DNA of 32,597 nucleotides. Origin: a virus. The notes below the pieces were generated by a model that was not told where the DNA came from, did not search any database, and saw nothing but the letters and a program-made list of their open reading frames with translations. Location: IMG/VR virus record IMGVR_UViG_3300030099_005531, positions 1 through 32,597 of that record; one strand, 5' to 3'. Position numbers and translations under genes: made by a program. Positions within the stretch are counted from its first letter, which is position 1. Each line of letters begins with the position of its first letter. Positions 4-16,832 of this stretch are shown here, piece by piece.

Positions 4-546
4 ATGGTTTTAGCCAAAGCTACTCATAAACCAAAACTTGAAATAGTAGCTAACCCACGAACAGAAAAGAACATCACACCTAAACAAGAAGAGTTTGCAA
101 GATTATATGTATGTGAGGATATTAGCCAAACAGAGGCCGCAGTCAGGGCAGGGTACTCTGTAAAGTCGGCACATGCGATAGCATCACAACTGCTAAATGG
201 TCAACGCTACCCACACGTAGTAGCGAGGATAGGTGAACTTAAAAGTGAACTTGCTAAAAAGTATGAAGTCACTTTTGAGGGCCACGTTAAAAAGTTAGCA
301 GAAATACGTGATGCAGCTATGACTGGCGGTAACTTCGCCGCAGCTGTTGCCGCTGAAAAATCACGAGGACAAGCCGCAGGCCTCTACATTGATCGTAAAG
401 AAATACTCCATGGAAAAATAGACCAGATGGATAAAGAGCAAGTAATGAAAGAAATACAGAAGCTACAAAAAGAGTTCCCTGCTCTTGCCGCTGTTGCTGA
501 TGGCAATGTGGTAATAGAAGGACAGGTTGAAGACAAGACAAAATAA
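4..546 (+). CDS. terS: Terminase small subunit (DNA-packaging recognition)
   Basis: Recognises phage DNA and hands it to the large terminase for packaging. The 180-residue protein carries the usual Terminase_2-like N-terminal block: 'ITPKQEEFARLY' near residue 24, then 'TEAAVRAGYS' near residue 43, which form the helix-turn-helix that binds DNA. The rest is helical, rich in Lys and Glu, and suits ring assembly (central region about 85-160). The position fits: it lies before the large subunit, although a nuclease, a repeat-rich gap and a foreign-looking gene come between. The reading frame is still open at the left edge (codon TAC before the ATG), so a start further upstream cannot be excluded. 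The family call is firm; the DNA site it binds is not known. Confidence 0.85.
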   Translation: MVLAKATHKPKLEIVANPRTEKNITPKQEEFARLYVCEDISQTEAAVRAGYSVKSAHAIASQLLNGQRYPHVVARIGELKSELAKKYEVTFEGHVKKLAEIRDAAMTGGNFAAAVAAEKSRGQAAGLYIDRKEILHGKIDQMDKEQVMKEIQKLQKEFPALAAVADGNVVIEGQVEDKTK

Positions 547-2627: not shown

Positions 2628-4094
2628 ATGGTTAGTGAGTTGGAGCATGTTCCCGAGGAACATTTAAAGAAGTTTGCTACATTATTAGACCGAGCGAGTT
2701 ATTTAACTAAGGCGGAGTCAGCGCGTAGTGATTTTATGACGTATTGCCAGATGGTATGGCCTGAGTTTGTAAATGGACGCCACCATGGAATAATGGCAGA
2801 GAAGTTTAACCGATTAGCTTCTGGTGATTTAAAACGGTTAATTGTGAATATGCCCCCCCGACATACGAAGAGTGAGTTTGGTAGTTATTTATTGCCTTCG
2901 TGGTTAATGGGCAGGAAGCCAACATTAAAGATTATGCAGACAACGCATACGGCAGAGTTGGCATTTAGGTTTGGACGTAAAACAAGAAATTTAATGAATA
3001 CTGATGAGTATCGAGGTATATTTGATGTTGAGTTACGAGCAGATAGCCAAGCTGCTGGTAGATGGGAGACATCAAAGGGTGGTGAATATTTTGCGGCTGG
3101 AGTTGGTGGAGCGGTGACGGGCCGTGGTGCGGATTTATTAATTATTGATGACCCTCATTCTGAACAAGATGCGTTATCGCCTACAGCATTAGAACATGCT
3201 TATGAGTGGTATACATCTGGCCCCCGTCAACGATTACAGCCTGGAGGGAGTATAGTAATTATTATGACTCGTTGGGCTGAGAATGATTTAACAGGTAAGC
3301 TGTTACGTCAGCAGGCGCGAGATATATTAGCAGATAAGTGGGAAGTTGTAGAGTTTCCAGCATTAATGCCAGAGTCGAATGAACCATTATGGCCTGAGTA
3401 TTGGAAGAAGGAAGATTTATTAGCGGTTAAGGGAAGTTTATCGGTAGGTAAGTGGGAAGCGCAGTGGCAGCAAAACCCGACGAGTGAGGGAGCTGCGATA
3501 CTTAAACGTGATTGGTGGCAGGAGTGGGAGAAAGAGGAGATACCGCATTTAGATTATGTAATGCAATCTTATGATACAGCTTATAGTAAAAAGGAGTCAG
3601 CGGATTACAGTGCTATAACAACGTGGGGAGTATTTTATCCGTATGATGGAGCGCCAGCAAATATATTACTTGTTGATGCCCAGAGGGGTAGGTGGGATTT
3701 TCCTGAGTTACGACGTAAAGCATTAGAGGAATATAAGTATTGGGATCCGGAATGTGTTTTAATTGAGGCAAAAGCTTCGGGTATGCCATTAACACAAGAG
3801 TTGCGGAATATGGGTATTCCGGTGCAGAATTATAGTCCTTCTAGAGGTAATGATAAATATACGCGAGTAAATTCTATTGCACCATTACTCGAATCAGGAT
3901 TAGTATGGGCGCCAGATACTCGTTGGTCGGAAGAGGTGATTGAGGAGTGTGCGGCGTTTCCTGCTGGAGAGCATGATGATTATGTTGATACGGTAACACA
4001 GGCGTTGCGAAGATTTAGAGAGGGTGGTTTTATACAGCACCCAGAAGATTATGAAGATGAAGAGGCACCCCCAAGAGTAAGGAGTTACTATTAA
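2628..4094 (+). CDS. terL: Terminase large subunit (ATPase and nuclease)
   Basis: The motor that pumps DNA into the head and cuts it. The N-terminal ATPase has the Walker A-like 'NMPPRHTKS' (residues 74-82, Lys81) seen in many terminases, Walker B 'LLIIDD' (170-175) and the coupling motif 'IMTRW' (212-216). The C-terminal RNase H-like nuclease has its acidic residues in 'YDTAYS' (D316), 'IEAKASG' (E380) and 'EHDDYVD' (D450/D451). The 488-residue length is normal and the protein looks complete. The ATG follows an in-frame stop closely, so no longer start exists. Its stop overlaps the portal start by one base (TAATG), pointing to coupled translation. Confidence 0.95.
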   Translation: MVSELEHVPEEHLKKFATLLDRASYLTKAESARSDFMTYCQMVWPEFVNGRHHGIMAEKFNRLASGDLKRLIVNMPPRHTKSEFGSYLLPSWLMGRKPTLKIMQTTHTAELAFRFGRKTRNLMNTDEYRGIFDVELRADSQAAGRWETSKGGEYFAAGVGGAVTGRGADLLIIDDPHSEQDALSPTALEHAYEWYTSGPRQRLQPGGSIVIIMTRWAENDLTGKLLRQQARDILADKWEVVEFPALMPESNEPLWPEYWKKEDLLAVKGSLSVGKWEAQWQQNPTSEGAAILKRDWWQEWEKEEIPHLDYVMQSYDTAYSKKESADYSAITTWGVFYPYDGAPANILLVDAQRGRWDFPELRRKALEEYKYWDPECVLIEAKASGMPLTQELRNMGIPVQNYSPSRGNDKYTRVNSIAPLLESGLVWAPDTRWSEEVIEECAAFPAGEHDDYVDTVTQALRRFREGGFIQHPEDYEDEEAPPRVRSYY

Positions 4095-6469
4095 TGGCAT
4101 TATCTCCTAAAGCAAACAATGTAGATCGCGCTTTAATACAGGCACCAGTTTCTGATTTAAGTTTTGAAGAAGAGGATTTGCTGGACCAAGAGAATGATTT
4201 TTTCCAAGGTGAGATAGAAATCGTAGAAGATGATGATGGCGGTGTAGAAATAACCGCAGGTATGGATGAGCAGGTATTTGGTGAGGAGCCTGCAAATTTT
4301 TACGATAATTTAGCGGAAGGTTTAAAAGATACCACATTAGCTGAAGTTGCGAGTTATGTTACATCTACAGTAGAAGAAGATAAAAGTAGCCGTAGTGATT
4401 GGGAAGATACTTATATTAAAGGATTAGATTTGCTTGGTATGCGGTATGAAACACGTACTGAGCCGTTTGAGGGTGCTACTGGTGTAATACATCCATTATT
4501 AAATGAGGCTGTTACACAGTTTCAGGCATCAGCGTATAAAGAAATGTTGCCAAGCCAAGGGCCAGTACGAGCAAATATTATTGGAGTGCCAACACCAGAA
4601 ACAGAACAACAAGCCCAACGAGTACAAACATACATGAATTATCAAATAATGTATGAGATGGAAGAGTATGAACCTGAGTTTGACCAGATGTTGTATTACT
4701 TAGGGTTAGCAGGGAGTGCATTTAAGAAAATTTACCGCGATGAAATGCTAGATAGGCCAGTAAGTAAGTTTGTGCCAGCTGAAGATGTGATTGTTCCGTA
4801 CATTGCTACAGATCTACAATCTGCAGAGCGGATAACTCATGTGATAAAAATGTCAAAAAATGAGTTAAAAAAGCTACAATTATCTGGTTTTTACATGGAA
4901 ATGGATAGTGAGAGCAGTGCATCGCCAGAAACAGATGATGTGCAGACAGCTTATGATGATATTGAGGGTGTAAGCCCTGCATATAATGATGAACAATTTA
5001 CATTACTTGAATGTCATTGTTTCTTAGACCTAGAAGAGTACACAGATAAGGGTGATGATGGCGAAAGTACAGGGTTAAAACTGCCATATATCGTAACAGT
5101 ATGTAAAGATACAGGCGAAGTATTGTCAATTAGGCGTAATTACTTACAAAATGACCCAAATAAAGATAAAATTCAGCATTTTGTGCAATATAAATTTACT
5201 CCAGGATTAGGTTTTTACGGTTTTGGTCTAATACATCTGCTTGGTAATTTATCTAGAACAGCAACAGCTAATTTACGCCAGTTAATTGACTCTGGCACAT
5301 TGGCAAATATGCCAGCAGGATTTAAAGCTCGTGGTTTGCGGATTGCAGATGAGCAAAGCCCACTTAATCCAGGAGAATTTAGGGATGTTGATGTTCCAGG
5401 AGGTGATTTAAAAGCATCTTTAATGCCATTACCGTATAAAGAGCCTAGTGGAACGCTGTTTCAGTTAATGGGTTTTGTTGTTGATGCCGCACAACGGTTT
5501 ATTGGTACGACTGATATGGGTGTTGGTCAGGGTAACCAAGAAATGCCTGTTGGTACAACTATTGCGCTACTTGAAAGAGGTAGCCGTATAGTTTCTGCAG
5601 TGCATAAACGATTACATGCGTCATTAAAACAAGAATTAAAAATGTTAGGTGCGTTGTTTGCACAAGATCCACGGCCTTATCCATACAATGCAGGAGCAGA
5701 TGCACAAATAAAAGCTCAAGATTTTGATGGTAGGATAGATATTCTGCCAGTAAGTGACCCAAATATTTTTAGTATGTCACAAAGGGTTGTATTAGCACAA
5801 GAACAACTCAAATTAGCGGTTGCTGCGCCTGATATGCACAATTTGTATGAAGCATATCACCGAGTGTATGAGGCTTTAGGTGTAAATAATATTGATCAAA
5901 TATTAAAACCTGAACCTGAGCAACGCCCTATGGATCCAACAATGGAGAATATGGAAACGAGTAATGTGGCTAATGGGCAGGGTAAATTACAAGCTTACCC
6001 AGAACAAGACCACGATGCTCATATCGCAGTGCATTTAGCATATATCAATAGTAGGGTTGCTCAAATGCAACCACCTGTAGCTATATTACTTGAAAAACAT
6101 ATTTACGAACACCTTGGTTTAAAAGCTAGGATAGTTGTACAGCAACAAATGCAAGGACAACAAGTTTCACCAGAACAAGTAGAGGGTATGATTGCTCAAA
6201 CGCAAGCACAATTAATTGCACAGTTCCAGCAATCGATGCCACCAGCACAAGAAGAAGACCCACTTGTCAAGATCAAGCAACAAGAGTTAGCATTGCGTGA
6301 ACAGGAAATGTTGGCTGACCAGCAAACAGACCAGAGGAAGTTAGCTTTGGATCAACAACGGCAACAGCAACAATTTCAATTAGGCCAAGATAGGATAAAC
6401 AGTACAGAGGATATTGCACAAATGAGAGCTAGGATTGCTTTGCAAAGAAATGCAAACACTAGAGGTTAA
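4094..6469 (+). CDS. Portal protein, P22-like podovirus type
   Basis: Forms the ring at the head vertex through which DNA passes. The 791 residues are within the range of P22-like portals. The acidic N-terminus (1-60) is followed by the conserved block around 'EPFEGATGVIHPLLNEAVTQF', then 'GSAFKKIYRD' and 'VPAEDVIVPY', which I recognise from phage portals. The segment 'GSGTLANMPAG'-like near 'LIDSGTLANMPAGF' and 'GQGNQEMPVGTTIALLERG' marks the stem and crown region. The last 110 residues are Gln-rich and helical ('QQQMQGQQ', 'QRQQQQFQLGQ'), likely the barrel. It sits immediately after the large terminase, the classical order. Confidence 0.9.
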   Translation: MALSPKANNVDRALIQAPVSDLSFEEEDLLDQENDFFQGEIEIVEDDDGGVEITAGMDEQVFGEEPANFYDNLAEGLKDTTLAEVASYVTSTVEEDKSSRSDWEDTYIKGLDLLGMRYETRTEPFEGATGVIHPLLNEAVTQFQASAYKEMLPSQGPVRANIIGVPTPETEQQAQRVQTYMNYQIMYEMEEYEPEFDQMLYYLGLAGSAFKKIYRDEMLDRPVSKFVPAEDVIVPYIATDLQSAERITHVIKMSKNELKKLQLSGFYMEMDSESSASPETDDVQTAYDDIEGVSPAYNDEQFTLLECHCFLDLEEYTDKGDDGESTGLKLPYIVTVCKDTGEVLSIRRNYLQNDPNKDKIQHFVQYKFTPGLGFYGFGLIHLLGNLSRTATANLRQLIDSGTLANMPAGFKARGLRIADEQSPLNPGEFRDVDVPGGDLKASLMPLPYKEPSGTLFQLMGFVVDAAQRFIGTTDMGVGQGNQEMPVGTTIALLERGSRIVSAVHKRLHASLKQELKMLGALFAQDPRPYPYNAGADAQIKAQDFDGRIDILPVSDPNIFSMSQRVVLAQEQLKLAVAAPDMHNLYEAYHRVYEALGVNNIDQILKPEPEQRPMDPTMENMETSNVANGQGKLQAYPEQDHDAHIAVHLAYINSRVAQMQPPVAILLEKHIYEHLGLKARIVVQQQMQGQQVSPEQVEGMIAQTQAQLIAQFQQSMPPAQEEDPLVKIKQQELALREQEMLADQQTDQRKLALDQQRQQQQFQLGQDRINSTEDIAQMRARIALQRNANTRG

Positions 6470-6475
6470 TGGTTT

Positions 6476-7189
6476 ATGCCTTATTTAATTAGTAATGTTC
6501 CGCACTTTAATTGTTGGGTGCGGAGGGAGTTTACTTGTAACCATATGGATTATCATGGCGAGTATCTCCATGCAGTGGCTTTTGCGGTAAATACAATACC
6601 TGATAGGTCGTTAAGTTTTCAGGTTGTATTTACAGGTTGTGAAGAGCTAGAGGAAACAGGCGAAAATGTACATGGCGGAGCTATGTGGGCAAGGATGCCA
6701 ATAGAAGCATTAGTTGCAGATATACCTTTACAAGAATGGCCCGAACCAATGTTAGATCATTTATGCCAACCTTGGGATTGTGAATCTAGAGACCATAGTG
6801 TTGTTATTATGGATCGTGTTAGTTCATCACCGTGGATATGTAAAATAGATGGCGAGTTTTACACTGGTAAATATATGTTTACTGTAGATTACACAGGTAA
6901 TGATATAGCAGATGATCCTGCTCAACATAAACAATCCCATGTAATTTACCTTACTGATGCAGGTGAGTGGACTGGTAATTTTGTAGCATTGCCTAATAAT
7001 AGAGTGCGAGCTACTAGTCCAGCTCTTTGGCGTACAGGCGAGGGCGCTCCTAATTTTGCACCATCGCAATGGGTACATTCTGCAGAGGGCCATGAATCTT
7101 ACTTAGACCCTGTTACTACATTTGATAATTTGTATTCTGATAATAGGAAGAAAAAGAATGGCAAAAGCTCCCGCAAAAAGAAAATTTAA
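6476..7189 (+). CDS. Conserved phage protein after portal, function unknown
   Basis: A 237-residue protein with many Trp, Cys and His residues, no membrane helix, and a strongly basic tail ('RKKKNGKSSRKKKI'). The middle 'SPWICKIDGEFYTGKYMFTVDYTG' looks like beta strands. Its position between portal and the small basic proteins suggests a virion or assembly role. The last 32 bases overlap the next gene, whose ribosome site lies inside it, so the Lys/Arg tail is partly forced by the overlap. I recognise the type from marine podoviruses but can give it no activity. Confidence 0.7.
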   Translation: MPYLISNVPHFNCWVRREFTCNHMDYHGEYLHAVAFAVNTIPDRSLSFQVVFTGCEELEETGENVHGGAMWARMPIEALVADIPLQEWPEPMLDHLCQPWDCESRDHSVVIMDRVSSSPWICKIDGEFYTGKYMFTVDYTGNDIADDPAQHKQSHVIYLTDAGEWTGNFVALPNNRVRATSPALWRTGEGAPNFAPSQWVHSAEGHESYLDPVTTFDNLYSDNRKKKNGKSSRKKKI

Positions 7190-9301: not shown

Positions 9302-9495
9302 TGTCAGAGCTTTACATATACGAAAAAATGTTGAAGAATATCCGCGAACGGCAAGATGTGGTTGTAGATGCTATATGTCATGGCCCTGTACCAGATTTTA
9401 CCGCATTCAAGGAACTCCGCGCAAAACTCGCGGAACTTGCAATAACAGAACAGGATCTTAAAGACCTGCTAGAAAAGGTGGAAGATGATGAGTAA
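9301..9495 (+). CDS. Small helical conserved protein (64 aa)
   Basis: An all-helical, charged protein ending 'LRAKLAELAITEQDLKDLLEKVEDDE', likely a coiled coil. It begins on the stop of the endolysin (one-base overlap) and overlaps the co-chaperonin start by 11 bases. Proteins with a 'VxDFxxFxxLRxxLxxLxxxxQDLxxLL' layout are common at this spot in marine podoviruses; their role is unknown, perhaps in head assembly. Confidence 0.6.
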   Translation: MSELYIYEKMLKNIRERQDVVVDAICHGPVPDFTAFKELRAKLAELAITEQDLKDLLEKVEDDE

Positions 9496-9976
9496 AACAC
9501 TATTGGTCCCCGATCATTATGTGGATAAAAAACCTAAAGAACCTCCAAAAACAAAACAAAAAATAGGTGTACTAGAAGAAGCATACGTTCGTGCTGAAGA
9601 TCGTTTTTTAGACCCTTCCAAAATCACAGATACTGCTATGAGCAGATTACCAGAGCCTACAGGGTGGCGAGTTTTATTGCTACCATATCAAGGTAAAAAG
9701 CAAACAGATGGCGGTATTCTACTACCAACAGAGGTTAGAGAAAAAGAAGCATTAGGAACTGTTTGTGGTTACGTGCTGAAAGTAGGACCTCTCGCTTATC
9801 TAGATGCAGATAAGTTTGGTGAAAACTCAGAGCCTTGGTGCAAAAAAGGTGATTGGGTTATTTTTGGACGGTATGCAGGTAGTCGGTTTAAAATAGAAGG
9901 GGGTGAGGTTCGTCTTTTAAATGATGATGAAATCTTAGCTCGTATAACTGACCCTGACGATATTTTACATTATTAG
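9485..9976 (+). CDS. GroES-like co-chaperonin (Cpn10)
   Basis: A phage co-chaperonin expected to cap the host GroEL chamber. Residues about 57-155 follow the GroES fold: 'PTGWRVLLLPYQ', the mobile loop 'KKQTDGGILLP' (71-81) that contacts GroEL, 'ALGTVCGYVLKVGPLAYLD', 'CKKGDWVIFGRYAGSRFKI' and 'LLNDDEILARI'. A 55-residue Lys/Glu-rich N-terminal extension is not found in cellular GroES. It is larger (163 against about 97 residues) and lies directly before scaffold and capsid genes, as expected if the capsid protein needs it, like T4 gp31. Start ATG 9485 or 9488. Confidence 0.85.
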   Translation: MMSKTLLVPDHYVDKKPKEPPKTKQKIGVLEEAYVRAEDRFLDPSKITDTAMSRLPEPTGWRVLLLPYQGKKQTDGGILLPTEVREKEALGTVCGYVLKVGPLAYLDADKFGENSEPWCKKGDWVIFGRYAGSRFKIEGGEVRLLNDDEILARITDPDDILHY

Positions 9977-12020: not shown

Positions 12021-12932
12021 ATGGCTATAGCAAGGTCGCAACTCCTTAAAGAACTTGAGCCAGGACTCAATGCGCTTTTTGGATTGGAATACGATCGGTA
12101 TGATAATGAACATGCCGAAATTTTTGAAACGGAATCTTCAGACAGAGCGTTTGAAGAAGAGGTAATGTTATCAGGGTTTGGTAGCGCACCAGTAAAAGGT
12201 GAAGGACAAGCAGTCTCATTTGATACTGCTAACGAAGCTTATACTGCTCGTTACACCCATGAAACAATCGCTCTTGCGTTTGCGATAACTGAAGAAGCAG
12301 TAGAGGATAACCTCTATGACAGACTCAGTTCTCGTTATACAAGAGCATTAGCTCGTTCCATGGCAAATACAAAGCAAGTCAAAGCCGCCGCCGTTCTTAA
12401 CAATGCGTTTGATAGCACTGTTACTTACGGAGATGGCAAAGAGCTTTGTGCTACTGACCACCCAACCGTCGGCGGAGGAAACTTCCGTAATGAGTTGGCA
12501 ACAGCAGCTGACCTAAACGAAACATCATTAGAGCAGTCATTAATTGACATTGCTGCTTTTATTGATGAGCGTGGGTTGAAAATTGCTTTGCAAGGACGTA
12601 AGATGATTATTCCAACTTCTCTTCAGTTTGTTGCTGAAAGGTTGATGGCTTCTAATCTACGTACAGCCACAGCAGATAATGATATCAACGCCCTCCGTAA
12701 TATGGGTATGCTCCCAGAAGGTTATGTAGTAAACCACTTCCTAACCGATACGGATGCGTTTTTTATCAAAACAGATGCTCCTAACGGTTTTAAACATTTT
12801 GAGCGAAGCGCAATCAGAACATCTATGGAAGGTGATTTTGACACAGGCAATGCTCGGTATAAAGCCCGTGAAAGATACAGCTTTGGCGTTTCTGATCCAA
12901 GGTGTGTATTTGGTTCTCCTGGAGCCGCCTAA
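12021..12932 (+). CDS. Major capsid protein (HK97 fold)
   Basis: The shell protein. Signature 'AYTARYTHETIALAFAITEEAVEDNLYD' (about residues 72-99) and 'LARSMANTKQVKAAAVLNNAFD' (the spine helix region) resemble the Mu gpT-like major head subunits. 'GRKMIIPTSLQFVAERLM' and the C-terminal 'YKARERYSFGVSDPRCVFGS' complete the domain. No prohead protease site is evident, so cleavage is not expected. A near-perfect ribosome site (AAGGAGG) and a strong terminator directly after the stop fit very high expression. Length 303 is normal. Confidence 0.92.
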   Translation: MAIARSQLLKELEPGLNALFGLEYDRYDNEHAEIFETESSDRAFEEEVMLSGFGSAPVKGEGQAVSFDTANEAYTARYTHETIALAFAITEEAVEDNLYDRLSSRYTRALARSMANTKQVKAAAVLNNAFDSTVTYGDGKELCATDHPTVGGGNFRNELATAADLNETSLEQSLIDIAAFIDERGLKIALQGRKMIIPTSLQFVAERLMASNLRTATADNDINALRNMGMLPEGYVVNHFLTDTDAFFIKTDAPNGFKHFERSAIRTSMEGDFDTGNARYKARERYSFGVSDPRCVFGSPGAA

Positions 12933-12936
12933 TATT

Positions 12937-12961
12937 AAGGGGGGAATAATCCCCCCTTTTT
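12937..12961 (+). terminator. Terminator after the capsid gene
   Basis: AAGGGGGG (12937-12944) pairs with CCCCCCTT (12951-12958) across the loop AATAAT, followed by TTT. It lies five bases after the capsid stop and should end the head transcript. Reading the other strand gives only a weak T tract, so it acts mainly on + transcription. Confidence 0.9.
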
Positions 12962-12976
12962 CTTTTATTTTTAAAT

Positions 12977-12992
12977 TGTTCCACGTGAAACA
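12977..12992. promoter_or_regulatory. parS: parS site: exact TGTTCCACGTGAAACA
   Basis: The 16 bases equal the bacterial chromosomal parS consensus, the site where ParB (Spo0J) loads as a CTP-dependent sliding clamp for chromosome segregation and SMC loading. Exact matches are rare by chance: for a given 16-mer on two strands in 32.6 kb the expectation is about 1.5 in 100,000 at even base composition. It sits alone between two + strand terminators in a 157-base gap, outside any gene. No ParA or ParB gene is visible in the window, so host ParB is the likely partner. Use by the phage is inferred. Confidence 0.85.
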
Positions 12993-12997
12993 TCTTG

Positions 12998-13022
12998 CCC
13001 CCTTGTGTTAGGGGGTTTTTTT
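12998..13022 (+). terminator. Second terminator, downstream of parS
   Basis: CCCCCT (12998-13003) pairs with AGGGGG (13010-13015) across the loop TGTGTT, followed by seven T (13016-13022). It begins five bases after parS. With the terminator upstream, it would leave parS outside strong transcription from the capsid side. Confidence 0.88.
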
Positions 13023-13044
13023 GTGTACGATTACTTATCCCTGA

Positions 13045-13089: not shown

Positions 13090-13572
13090 ATGGCTAATTC
13101 TACTTTCTCAGGACCAGTGCGTTCTGAAAACGGTTTTTCAGATATTACTAAAAATACGACGACAGGTGCCGTTACAAGCACAATGACTCTGCAAACGTAT
13201 GAGGCAACAATCACTGTTGCTAATGGTGATACCACAGGTAAAGAGTCTGCTATTGGTATTCCAGCTAATTTTATCCCGATGGGAGTTACTGTTGCCGTAA
13301 CCACAGCAGCGGCAAACGCTGTAAATTTAGTTGATATTGGCACAGATGCTGATACAGATGGTTTTGTAGATGGTATCTCTGCCGCAGTAAACTCTACTGG
13401 TTTTAAAGGCTTTTTTGGTTGTAATGGTGTTCTTGGCATGTCAGGATTTACGACATCAGCAAGTGGTGCTACCCCCGATGAAGTTGAGATAGTAGTTTCT
13501 GGTGATCCAGGAGGGGATACAGTAATTGTTTTGAAATTTTTCGGTATCTCTAGCTCCTCCGACGCATCGTAA
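13090..13572 (+). CDS. Head structural protein (160 aa)
   Basis: Begins 'MANSTFSGPVRSENGFSDI', a header shared by virion proteins of many marine phages, followed by a Thr/Val/Gly-rich beta-strand body ('YEATITVANGDTTGKESAIGIPANFIPMGV') and a C-terminal 'GGDTVIVLKFFGISSSS'. No charged or membrane segments. It is the first gene after the capsid terminators and must be driven by a promoter I could not identify, or by read-through. Likely a decoration or minor head protein. Confidence 0.7.
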   Translation: MANSTFSGPVRSENGFSDITKNTTTGAVTSTMTLQTYEATITVANGDTTGKESAIGIPANFIPMGVTVAVTTAAANAVNLVDIGTDADTDGFVDGISAAVNSTGFKGFFGCNGVLGMSGFTTSASGATPDEVEIVVSGDPGGDTVIVLKFFGISSSSDAS

Positions 13573-15981: not shown

Positions 15982-16832
15982 GTTTTACATACAGCACTCT
16001 CAAAGACGCTATTAAAAACTACACGCAAAACACAGAAACAGTTTTCTTAAATTCTATGGATATGTTTATTCGTTTAGCAGAAGAGCGTATTTTAAAATCA
16101 ACTCAATTAAACGTATTTCAAAAAAATGTGACGGGAACACTTTTGTTAGGAAGTGAGTACCTAGCTGTTCCTAGTGATTTTTTATCACCTCACTCACTAA
16201 GTATTACGAATAATAGCTTGTATGAGTATTTACAATTTAAAGAACTTGAGTTTGTGCAATCATACAATCCTAATGCTTCGGCAACAGGCACCCCGAAATA
16301 CTATGGACAATTTGATGCTAACTATTTTATTCTAGCTCCCACCCCCGACGCGACATATACAGTTAGTCTAAGTTATTTTCATAGACCTACCAGCTTAACG
16401 CAAAGTTTATATCTTTTAACCCTGAGTACAGTATCAGGGACATTTGTTGTTGGTGAAACTATTACTGGCGGTACAAGCGGACAAAGTTCAACTATAGGGG
16501 TTGTTGAAAGTGCCACCAGTTTGACCGTTGGCATACCAAGTCAAAATTATACTGTTGGTGAAACTATCACTGGCGGTACAAGTGGTGCGACTGCTGTAAT
16601 CACTGCCGTTGGTGCAGATACAACAAATAGTTGGTTAAGTGAAAATGCTGAGGTAGCTCTTTTGTATGCCTCACTTGCTGAGTGCTACCTTTTTATGAAA
16701 GGTGAGCAAGATGTAATGAATATGTACAACCAACGGTATGGGGAAGCAATCAATCGCTTGAAAAATTTAGGCGAGGCATTAGAAGTTACAGATGATTATT
16801 CTGCAGGTTATATTAAGAAAGAAAGAACGTAA
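15978..16832 (+). CDS. Phage adaptor protein with inserted beta repeats
   Basis: A 284-residue connector protein of a family I know as phage adaptor (DUF6682-like; number from memory): 'MDMFIRLAEERILKS', 'NVTGTLLLGSEYLAVPSDFLSPHSLSI', 'GTPKYYGQFDANYFILAPTPDATYTVSLSYF'. The chain is then broken by two copies of 'VGETITGGTSG' repeats (about residues 151-215) before resuming with 'WLSENAEVALLYASLAECYLFMKGEQDV' and the usual C-terminal helix 'NRLKNLGEALEV'. The insertion is the same module found in the gp4-like protein. Confidence 0.78.
   Translation: MSFTYSTLKDAIKNYTQNTETVFLNSMDMFIRLAEERILKSTQLNVFQKNVTGTLLLGSEYLAVPSDFLSPHSLSITNNSLYEYLQFKELEFVQSYNPNASATGTPKYYGQFDANYFILAPTPDATYTVSLSYFHRPTSLTQSLYLLTLSTVSGTFVVGETITGGTSGQSSTIGVVESATSLTVGIPSQNYTVGETITGGTSGATAVITAVGADTTNSWLSENAEVALLYASLAECYLFMKGEQDVMNMYNQRYGEAINRLKNLGEALEVTDDYSAGYIKKERT

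Follow-up and report, generated by a model that had tools for sequence, protein, structure and literature searches.

The window, i.e. the whole 32,597-bp IMG/VR record analysed here, has a G+C content of approximately 0.40 and encodes a set of packaging and structural proteins that were recognised in profile searches: the small and large terminase subunits (TerS and TerL), the portal protein, a GroES-like co-chaperonin, a scaffold-like protein and the capsid protein (Table 1). The relatedness of its genes for TerL, portal, GroES and capsid identifies the phage as an HTVC023P-type podovirus, a member of this pelagiphage group. The TerL is 58–62% identical to those of HTVC027P, HTVC023P and phage 023Pt_psg01, and the capsid protein 71–76% identical (75% in the case of HTVC023P). 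Podoviruses of this type have an average genome of 58.8 kb with 42% G+C (PMC9599517), and the G+C content of the window is close to this group value. Related genomes of 59–60 kb were found, and the window itself is only a fragment of this ~60-kb genome type. The product of the gene at 6476–7189 matched phrog_3704 ('ferredoxin', E 1e-28), yet had no match in Pfam, and this annotation is doubtful. A padloc scan of the window proteins gave no match.

Table 1. Features of the window that bear on the parS site and its surroundings
Feature	Position	Strand	Evidence and remarks
Terminase small subunit	4..546	+	PF03592, E 6e-14
Terminase large subunit, query for sampling relatives	2628..4094	+	phrog_38, E 3e-111
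Portal protein	4094..6469	+	phrog_1216, E 1.5e-50
GroES-like co-chaperonin	9485..9976	+	PF00166, E 1e-12
Major capsid protein, gene directly 5' of parS	12021..12932	+	phrog_371, E 5e-21; 75% to HTVC023P capsid
Intrinsic-terminator-like hairpin 1, end of capsid transcript	12937..12968	+	9-bp stem, T-rich tail; fold
parS TGTTCCACGTGAAACA, asymmetric C5/A12 variant	12977..12992	+	exact match; chromosomal parS in G411 (L727:4999) identical
Intrinsic-terminator-like hairpin 2	12997..13023	+	7-bp stem, T run; kept in L327, L331, L334
Gene directly 3' of parS	13090..13572	+	phrog_36974, function unassigned; position equals that of the DSL-LC04 'cement protein' (order in OR003939)

The initial annotation had reported an exact chromosomal parS sequence behind the capsid gene. 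Both parts of this description were confirmed: the upstream gene encodes the major head protein, and TGTTCCACGTGAAACA at 12977–12992 matches the chromosomal-type consensus TGTTYCACGTGRAACA over 16 bp. No other match within 3 mismatches was detected in the window, dinucleotide shuffles of which yielded a mean of 0.27 matches at this threshold (≤3 mismatches); the expected count of an exact 16-mer in 32.6 kb is, by simple arithmetic, about 1e-5. The site starts 44 bp past the capsid stop codon, is intergenic (covered by no plausible gene) and is flanked by the two terminator-like hairpins, and no sigma-70-like promoter was found near it.

In bacteria, parS is recognised by CTP-bound ParB, which loads at the site, closes into a clamp and slides or spreads over the adjacent DNA; in many species ParB also recruits SMC and stimulates ParA. 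The identification of the phage 16-mer with such a ParB loading site was upheld by comparison with the chromosomes of marine bacteria. Two families were analysed. The first, comprising AG-900-J20 and kin (small-genome marine Alphaproteobacteria), carries exactly one site in 35 of 41 genomes, and all 35 of these are the asymmetric 16-mer of the window; in one of its members (G067) the site is found where mnmG begins, with parA ~2.4 kb and parB ~3.2 kb further on. An assignment of this family to SAR11 was dropped, as it was negative for SAM-V. The second family (including G315) is SAR11-like, as judged by SAM-V riboswitches (84.7 bits), and has exactly one site in 32 of 41 genomes, 30 of which carry GTTTCACGTGAAAC. 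In the SAR11-like genome G411 the single chromosomal parS is identical to the 16 bases of the window and lies beside parAB, between mnmG and rsmG, 0.6 kb from parA. The host sites adjoin mnmG, rsmG, parA and parB in all four genomes inspected, and their ends are variable (T, C or A as the first base; A, T or G as the last), as is also the case in phages. Since the same 16-mer is present across many bacterial phyla, it cannot on its own name the host of the window phage, which we infer.

A short sequence that is patchily present among close relatives might be a chance match, or captured host DNA devoid of function. We therefore judged enrichment against control words rather than against a theoretical rate, and relied on position, free columns and all-or-none presence; the information content at the specified bases is set by the search pattern and was excluded. 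Among IMG/VR contigs bearing TGTTNCACGTGNAACA, 31 of 120 belonged to the phage clade of the window (defined by a match to its proteins at a score of at least 150 bits), compared with 2 of 120 contigs bearing the control palindrome TGTTNCAGCTGNAACA (Fisher 1.8e-8). At the two free positions, which ParB tolerates, the combination known for parS (Y5/R12) was observed in 138 of 145 parS matches versus 24 of 120 control matches (p 6e-40); by these counts, variation of the site is limited to the tolerated positions. A hypothesis-free count of perfect 14-bp palindromes in 2.55 Mb of relatives identified GTTTCACGTGAAAC as the most recurrent (20 distinct flank contexts; the next best had 8).

Three sub-clades were also sampled, each consisting of 80 relatives of a seed protein: the TerL of L013 (sub-clade A), the capsid protein of L047 (B) and the TerL of L033 (C). 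The seeds had been picked via parS, whereas their relatives were drawn without regard to it. Six control palindromes gave no match in these sets (0.67, 0.62 and 0.62 Mb; 1.9 Mb in total), as against dozens for parS, which rules out chance at the level of the clade. Moreover, intact sites recur in place while their flanks diverge to near background, and the phage sites are not accompanied by the host flanks (mnmG, rsmG). Chance or functionless capture is thus barely conceivable as an explanation.

The initial annotation had proposed to test whether the place behind the capsid gene is conserved while the flanks diverge. This was true of only some of the relatives. The 16-mer lies between the same two terminators in the window, L327, L334 and L335, the variant CGTTTCACGTGAAACG was found directly 3' of the capsid stop in L364, L372, L392, L394, L395, L128 and L131, and L129 has CGTTTCACGTGAAACA in the post-capsid slot. 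Another relative (L388) carries a copy 2 differences away from the consensus. Most capsid relatives have no site at the post-capsid slot. In L331, whose capsid protein is 96% identical, both terminators are kept and about two dozen bases including the site are missing; the corresponding 60-kb record (L331/G003) contains no site anywhere. Absence from this locus, which the initial annotation had named as a refutation, was therefore encountered in many relatives, yet other sub-clades carry the site elsewhere. As shown by close relatives without any site, parS is an accessory element in this clade.

Two observations concern the sequence of this slot. In L334 (13249–13320), the motif AACGTGAAAATTG, a partial copy of the CGTGAAA of the site, is located 5' of parS; compared with L331, it hints at how the element is gained or lost between the terminators. 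Furthermore, four relatives without parS (L188, positions 1736–1760, as well as L189, L190 and L197) contain the palindrome CGAACAATTGTTCG, or a close variant of it, between the capsid stop and the terminator. This palindrome presumably resembles the LexA box of Gram-positive bacteria (CGAACNNNNGTTCG), and may be a site for another protein of the host, or else a hairpin.

The proximity of the post-capsid site to terminators raises the question of whether the palindrome acts in the transcript (in 3'-end protection, processing or as part of a terminator), its likeness to parS being coincidental. Symmetric versions of the site do fold (−3.9 to −4.7 kcal/mol), and other palindromes occupy the same slot in some relatives (CGAACAATTGTTCG in L188–L190), although they recur far less. 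However, the asymmetric variant of the window has a folding energy of 0.0 kcal/mol and forms no stem of its own in the predicted fold, and for this copy an RNA hairpin was rejected. In addition, the substitutions track the tolerance of ParB (Y5/R12) and not base pairing, and the sites of sub-clades A, B and C lie upstream of genes and not behind a capsid terminator. A role as an RNA hairpin is consequently highly improbable.

In sub-clade A, parS was detected in 38 of 80 loci, in a layout that places it between a TerS homologue and TerL. Within the 67 loci covering the 450 bp before TerL, an intact 14-bp core was present there in 28, elsewhere in 6 and absent from 33, and only one of the 33 site-free loci contained a remnant with 1 mismatch; some of the pre-TerL sites are pairs 24 bp apart. 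Sub-clade B had parS in 10 of 80 loci, in every case 423–454 bp before a GroES-like gene. In sub-clade C the site was found in 30 of 80 loci, 25 of which carry 2–5 sites, mostly 0.2–2.1 kb upstream of TerL and at variable spacing. Called genes contained 7 of 48 sites in A and 1 of 10 in B, compared with a fraction of ~0.9 for random positions; the value for C was 39 of 86 with a crude caller whose short spurious frames are included. The place of the site shifts between sub-clades while its sequence stays the same. This speaks for selection to possess a ParB-loading site close to the packaging and structural genes, and not for selection on one place or a local regulatory role.

Examples of the arrays in sub-clade C are L033 (2657–3444), L089 (10535–11462), L740–L754 and L804, which are centromere-like and drift in spacing. 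Several or paired parS sites were also noted outside the clade (L002, L016, L032, L048, L074, L085, L101, L121 and L818–L875), and 61 viral stretches contain two copies of GTTTCACGTGAAAC 4–30 bp apart. Some of these multi-parS contigs from outside the clade may stem from the flanks of prophages or from contaminating bacterial DNA.

A palindromic, intergenic and sometimes single site upstream of TerL or GroES genes could also be the operator of a phage-encoded regulator, or of another host regulator, with ParB-like specificity, ParB itself being uninvolved; many phage genes are of unassigned function and might encode such a protein. No ParB-fold protein was found, however, in the clade genomes searched, and the site shifts among unrelated genes. 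The copy in the window is enclosed by two terminators and has no sigma-70-like promoter in its vicinity, the same 16-mer occurs as a chromosomal parS in host bacteria, and clusters of 2–5 sites with drifting spacing are more like centromeres. We regard an operator as distinctly improbable. Further recurrent perfect palindromes, noted in loci of sub-clades A and B (e.g. at ~5800 in L411), are the CRP-box-like TTTGTGATCACAAA (3 loci, 7 contexts), GTCAATTAATTGAC (sub-clade B, 7 contexts) and CTAAATATATTTAG (6 contexts, close to relatives of the window itself); all three are possibly operators of regulators.

The site is also present in isolated phages. HTVC027P, whose host is Pelagibacter HTCC1062, carries CGTTTCACGTGAAACA in the gap 16207–16499, 0.6 kb from TerS, and no full site was found in HTVC023P, which grows on the same strain. 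The Ruegeria pomeroyi siphophages DSS3P8, V10 and RpAliso have 3 sites each; those of DSS3P8, at positions 842, 141134 and 143178, are all TGTTTCACGTGAAACA, intergenic, and fall within ~6 kb across the ends of the record. Two phages were left out of the count of isolates: CRP-810, with a site inside a gene of the structural region, and Alcaligenes phage QDWS535, with a site inside a small annotated frame.

The phage had been described as showing no ParB, and this proved correct for the window: the best match of our own profile, based on four ParB sequences from Alphaproteobacteria, had an E value of 0.85, compared with 4e-76 for a held-out ParB. Given that the window is a 32.6-kb fragment of a ~60-kb genome, its lack of ParB is weak evidence by itself. 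The profile found nothing in the near-complete genomes G002, G006 and G007 or in HTVC027P, and its single match in the clade loci (L087) was an unrelated contig. PF02195 likewise gave no match in 49 records or in a further 16, some of them short contigs; these include the site-bearing G002, G006, G007, G033 and G043 (59–62 kb), HTVC027P and DSS3P8. Annotated ParA was absent from HTVC027P and from the inspected stretches of HTVC023P and DSS3P8. The phage sites are therefore not linked to parAB, as the host copies are, and the ParB of its own that marks a complete phage or plasmid ParABS system was not found in these phages. A parS without a phage parB would act like host parS on foreign DNA, and not as part of a phage ParABS locus.

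A tyrosine integrase was absent from the records of the podovirus clade except for G026/L005, a record whose only matches to the window are two small genes, and G002 has a replication module consisting of PolA, primase and helicases. The phages of this clade look virulent. In DSS3P8 and CRP-810, tyrosine recombinase domains are present.

It is well established that parS forms part of chromosomes and plasmids and works with ParB from the same or a partner replicon. With the bacterial chromosomal system (ParABS, consensus TGTTYCACGTGRAACA) the phage sites share the same 16 bp, the tolerated positions and the occurrence in one to several copies. They differ in that the host copies inspected adjoin parAB, whereas the phage site is situated among structural genes, neither parA nor parB was found, and its location is not fixed across relatives. 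The par systems of P1 and F and the ParABS of mycobacteriophages also place a ParB-loading site on a mobile element. These elements encode their own ParA and ParB with a cognate site, whereas the podoviruses described here have a host-type site only, and no integrase. The Staphylococcus phage Lacachita encodes ParB without ParA and has no integrase (PMC10286716). This is likewise a partial partition system in an integrase-free phage, although there it is the protein that occurs without a known site, and here the site without the protein. The initial annotation knew of no standard description of host parS in such phages, and we found none in the open full-text literature. The element itself belongs to a known kind; its presence, conservation and clustering in ParB-less phages are, as far as our searches show, undescribed in that literature.

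Identity with host parS, enrichment in the clade, all-or-none presence, substitutions confined to tolerated positions, movement between intergenic places, clusters of 2–5 sites and the failure to find a phage ParB together argue that the 16-mer functions as a parS, that selection has maintained it in a podovirus without its own ParB and that it loads host ParB clamps; on these sequence patterns we assign this reading a probability of about 0.78. Against it stands the dispensability of the site, L331 and HTVC023P having no full copy. After injection, host ParB-CTP would load at the phage parS and form closed clamps, which would slide along the adjacent phage DNA and coat some kilobases of it. 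The phage genome would then be handled like the origin region of the host and be passed to SMC as well as to ParA or polar anchors. It is ParB binding during infection, and the gain that it brings to the phage, that we infer here.

Provided that ParB binds, we tentatively favour, at somewhat less than even odds, a gain through ParA or SMC, which would position or condense the phage DNA during its replication or packaging; packaging might benefit from a position near TerS and TerL or the capsid gene. Alternatively, phage copies could act as a decoy, titrating ParB off the single parS of the host and so disturbing its segregation or division, which would be a special case of the hijacking of ParB. 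Marine alphaproteobacterial genomes have a single site, which even one site per phage would outnumber after replication, and there are up to 5 sites in sub-clade C and 3 in the Ruegeria phages. However, if the sites were purely a decoy, many strong ones would be favoured, and most of these podoviruses have one; one site per genome, as in the sub-clade of the window, does little at low copy number. There is also little obvious reason for lytic phages to stop segregation. In our estimate such titration is unlikely, and only slightly less so when ParB binding is taken as given.

Another special case of ParB hijacking would be the segregation by host ParAB of a phage genome that persists in a carrier state or in plasmid-like form. 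In plasmids and chromosomes, parS has this very role. The tyrosine recombinase domains of DSS3P8 and CRP-810 also fit this explanation, and for the Ruegeria phages, which carry such domains, a partition role is possible. But the records of the podovirus clade (bar G026/L005) have no tyrosine integrase, G002 combines its replication module with the lack of a ParB, and a carrier state of these phages was not found described in the literature consulted. We consider episome partition improbable, with a marginally better chance if ParB binding is granted. Less probable still, on the same premise, are an effect on local transcription or on the timing of packaging near the terminase and, to the same degree, any other gain.

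Taking the lineages together, we find it rather probable that several lineages of virulent aquatic phages have taken up host centromere sites, relocated them and increased their number (to as many as 5 in a cluster ahead of the terminase), so that host ParB clamps, and then ParA or SMC, would organise the phage DNA. This would constitute an in-cis hijack of the segregation machinery that takes 16 bp and no protein of the phage's own. The conserved sites in ParB-less virus groups suggest that these viruses borrow the chromosome-handling machinery of their hosts. If the phages do load host ParB, abundant aquatic phages would be exploiting the machinery of segregation and condensation as a host factor, and it would be worthwhile to scan phages for short non-coding sites of this kind, which are invisible to gene annotation.
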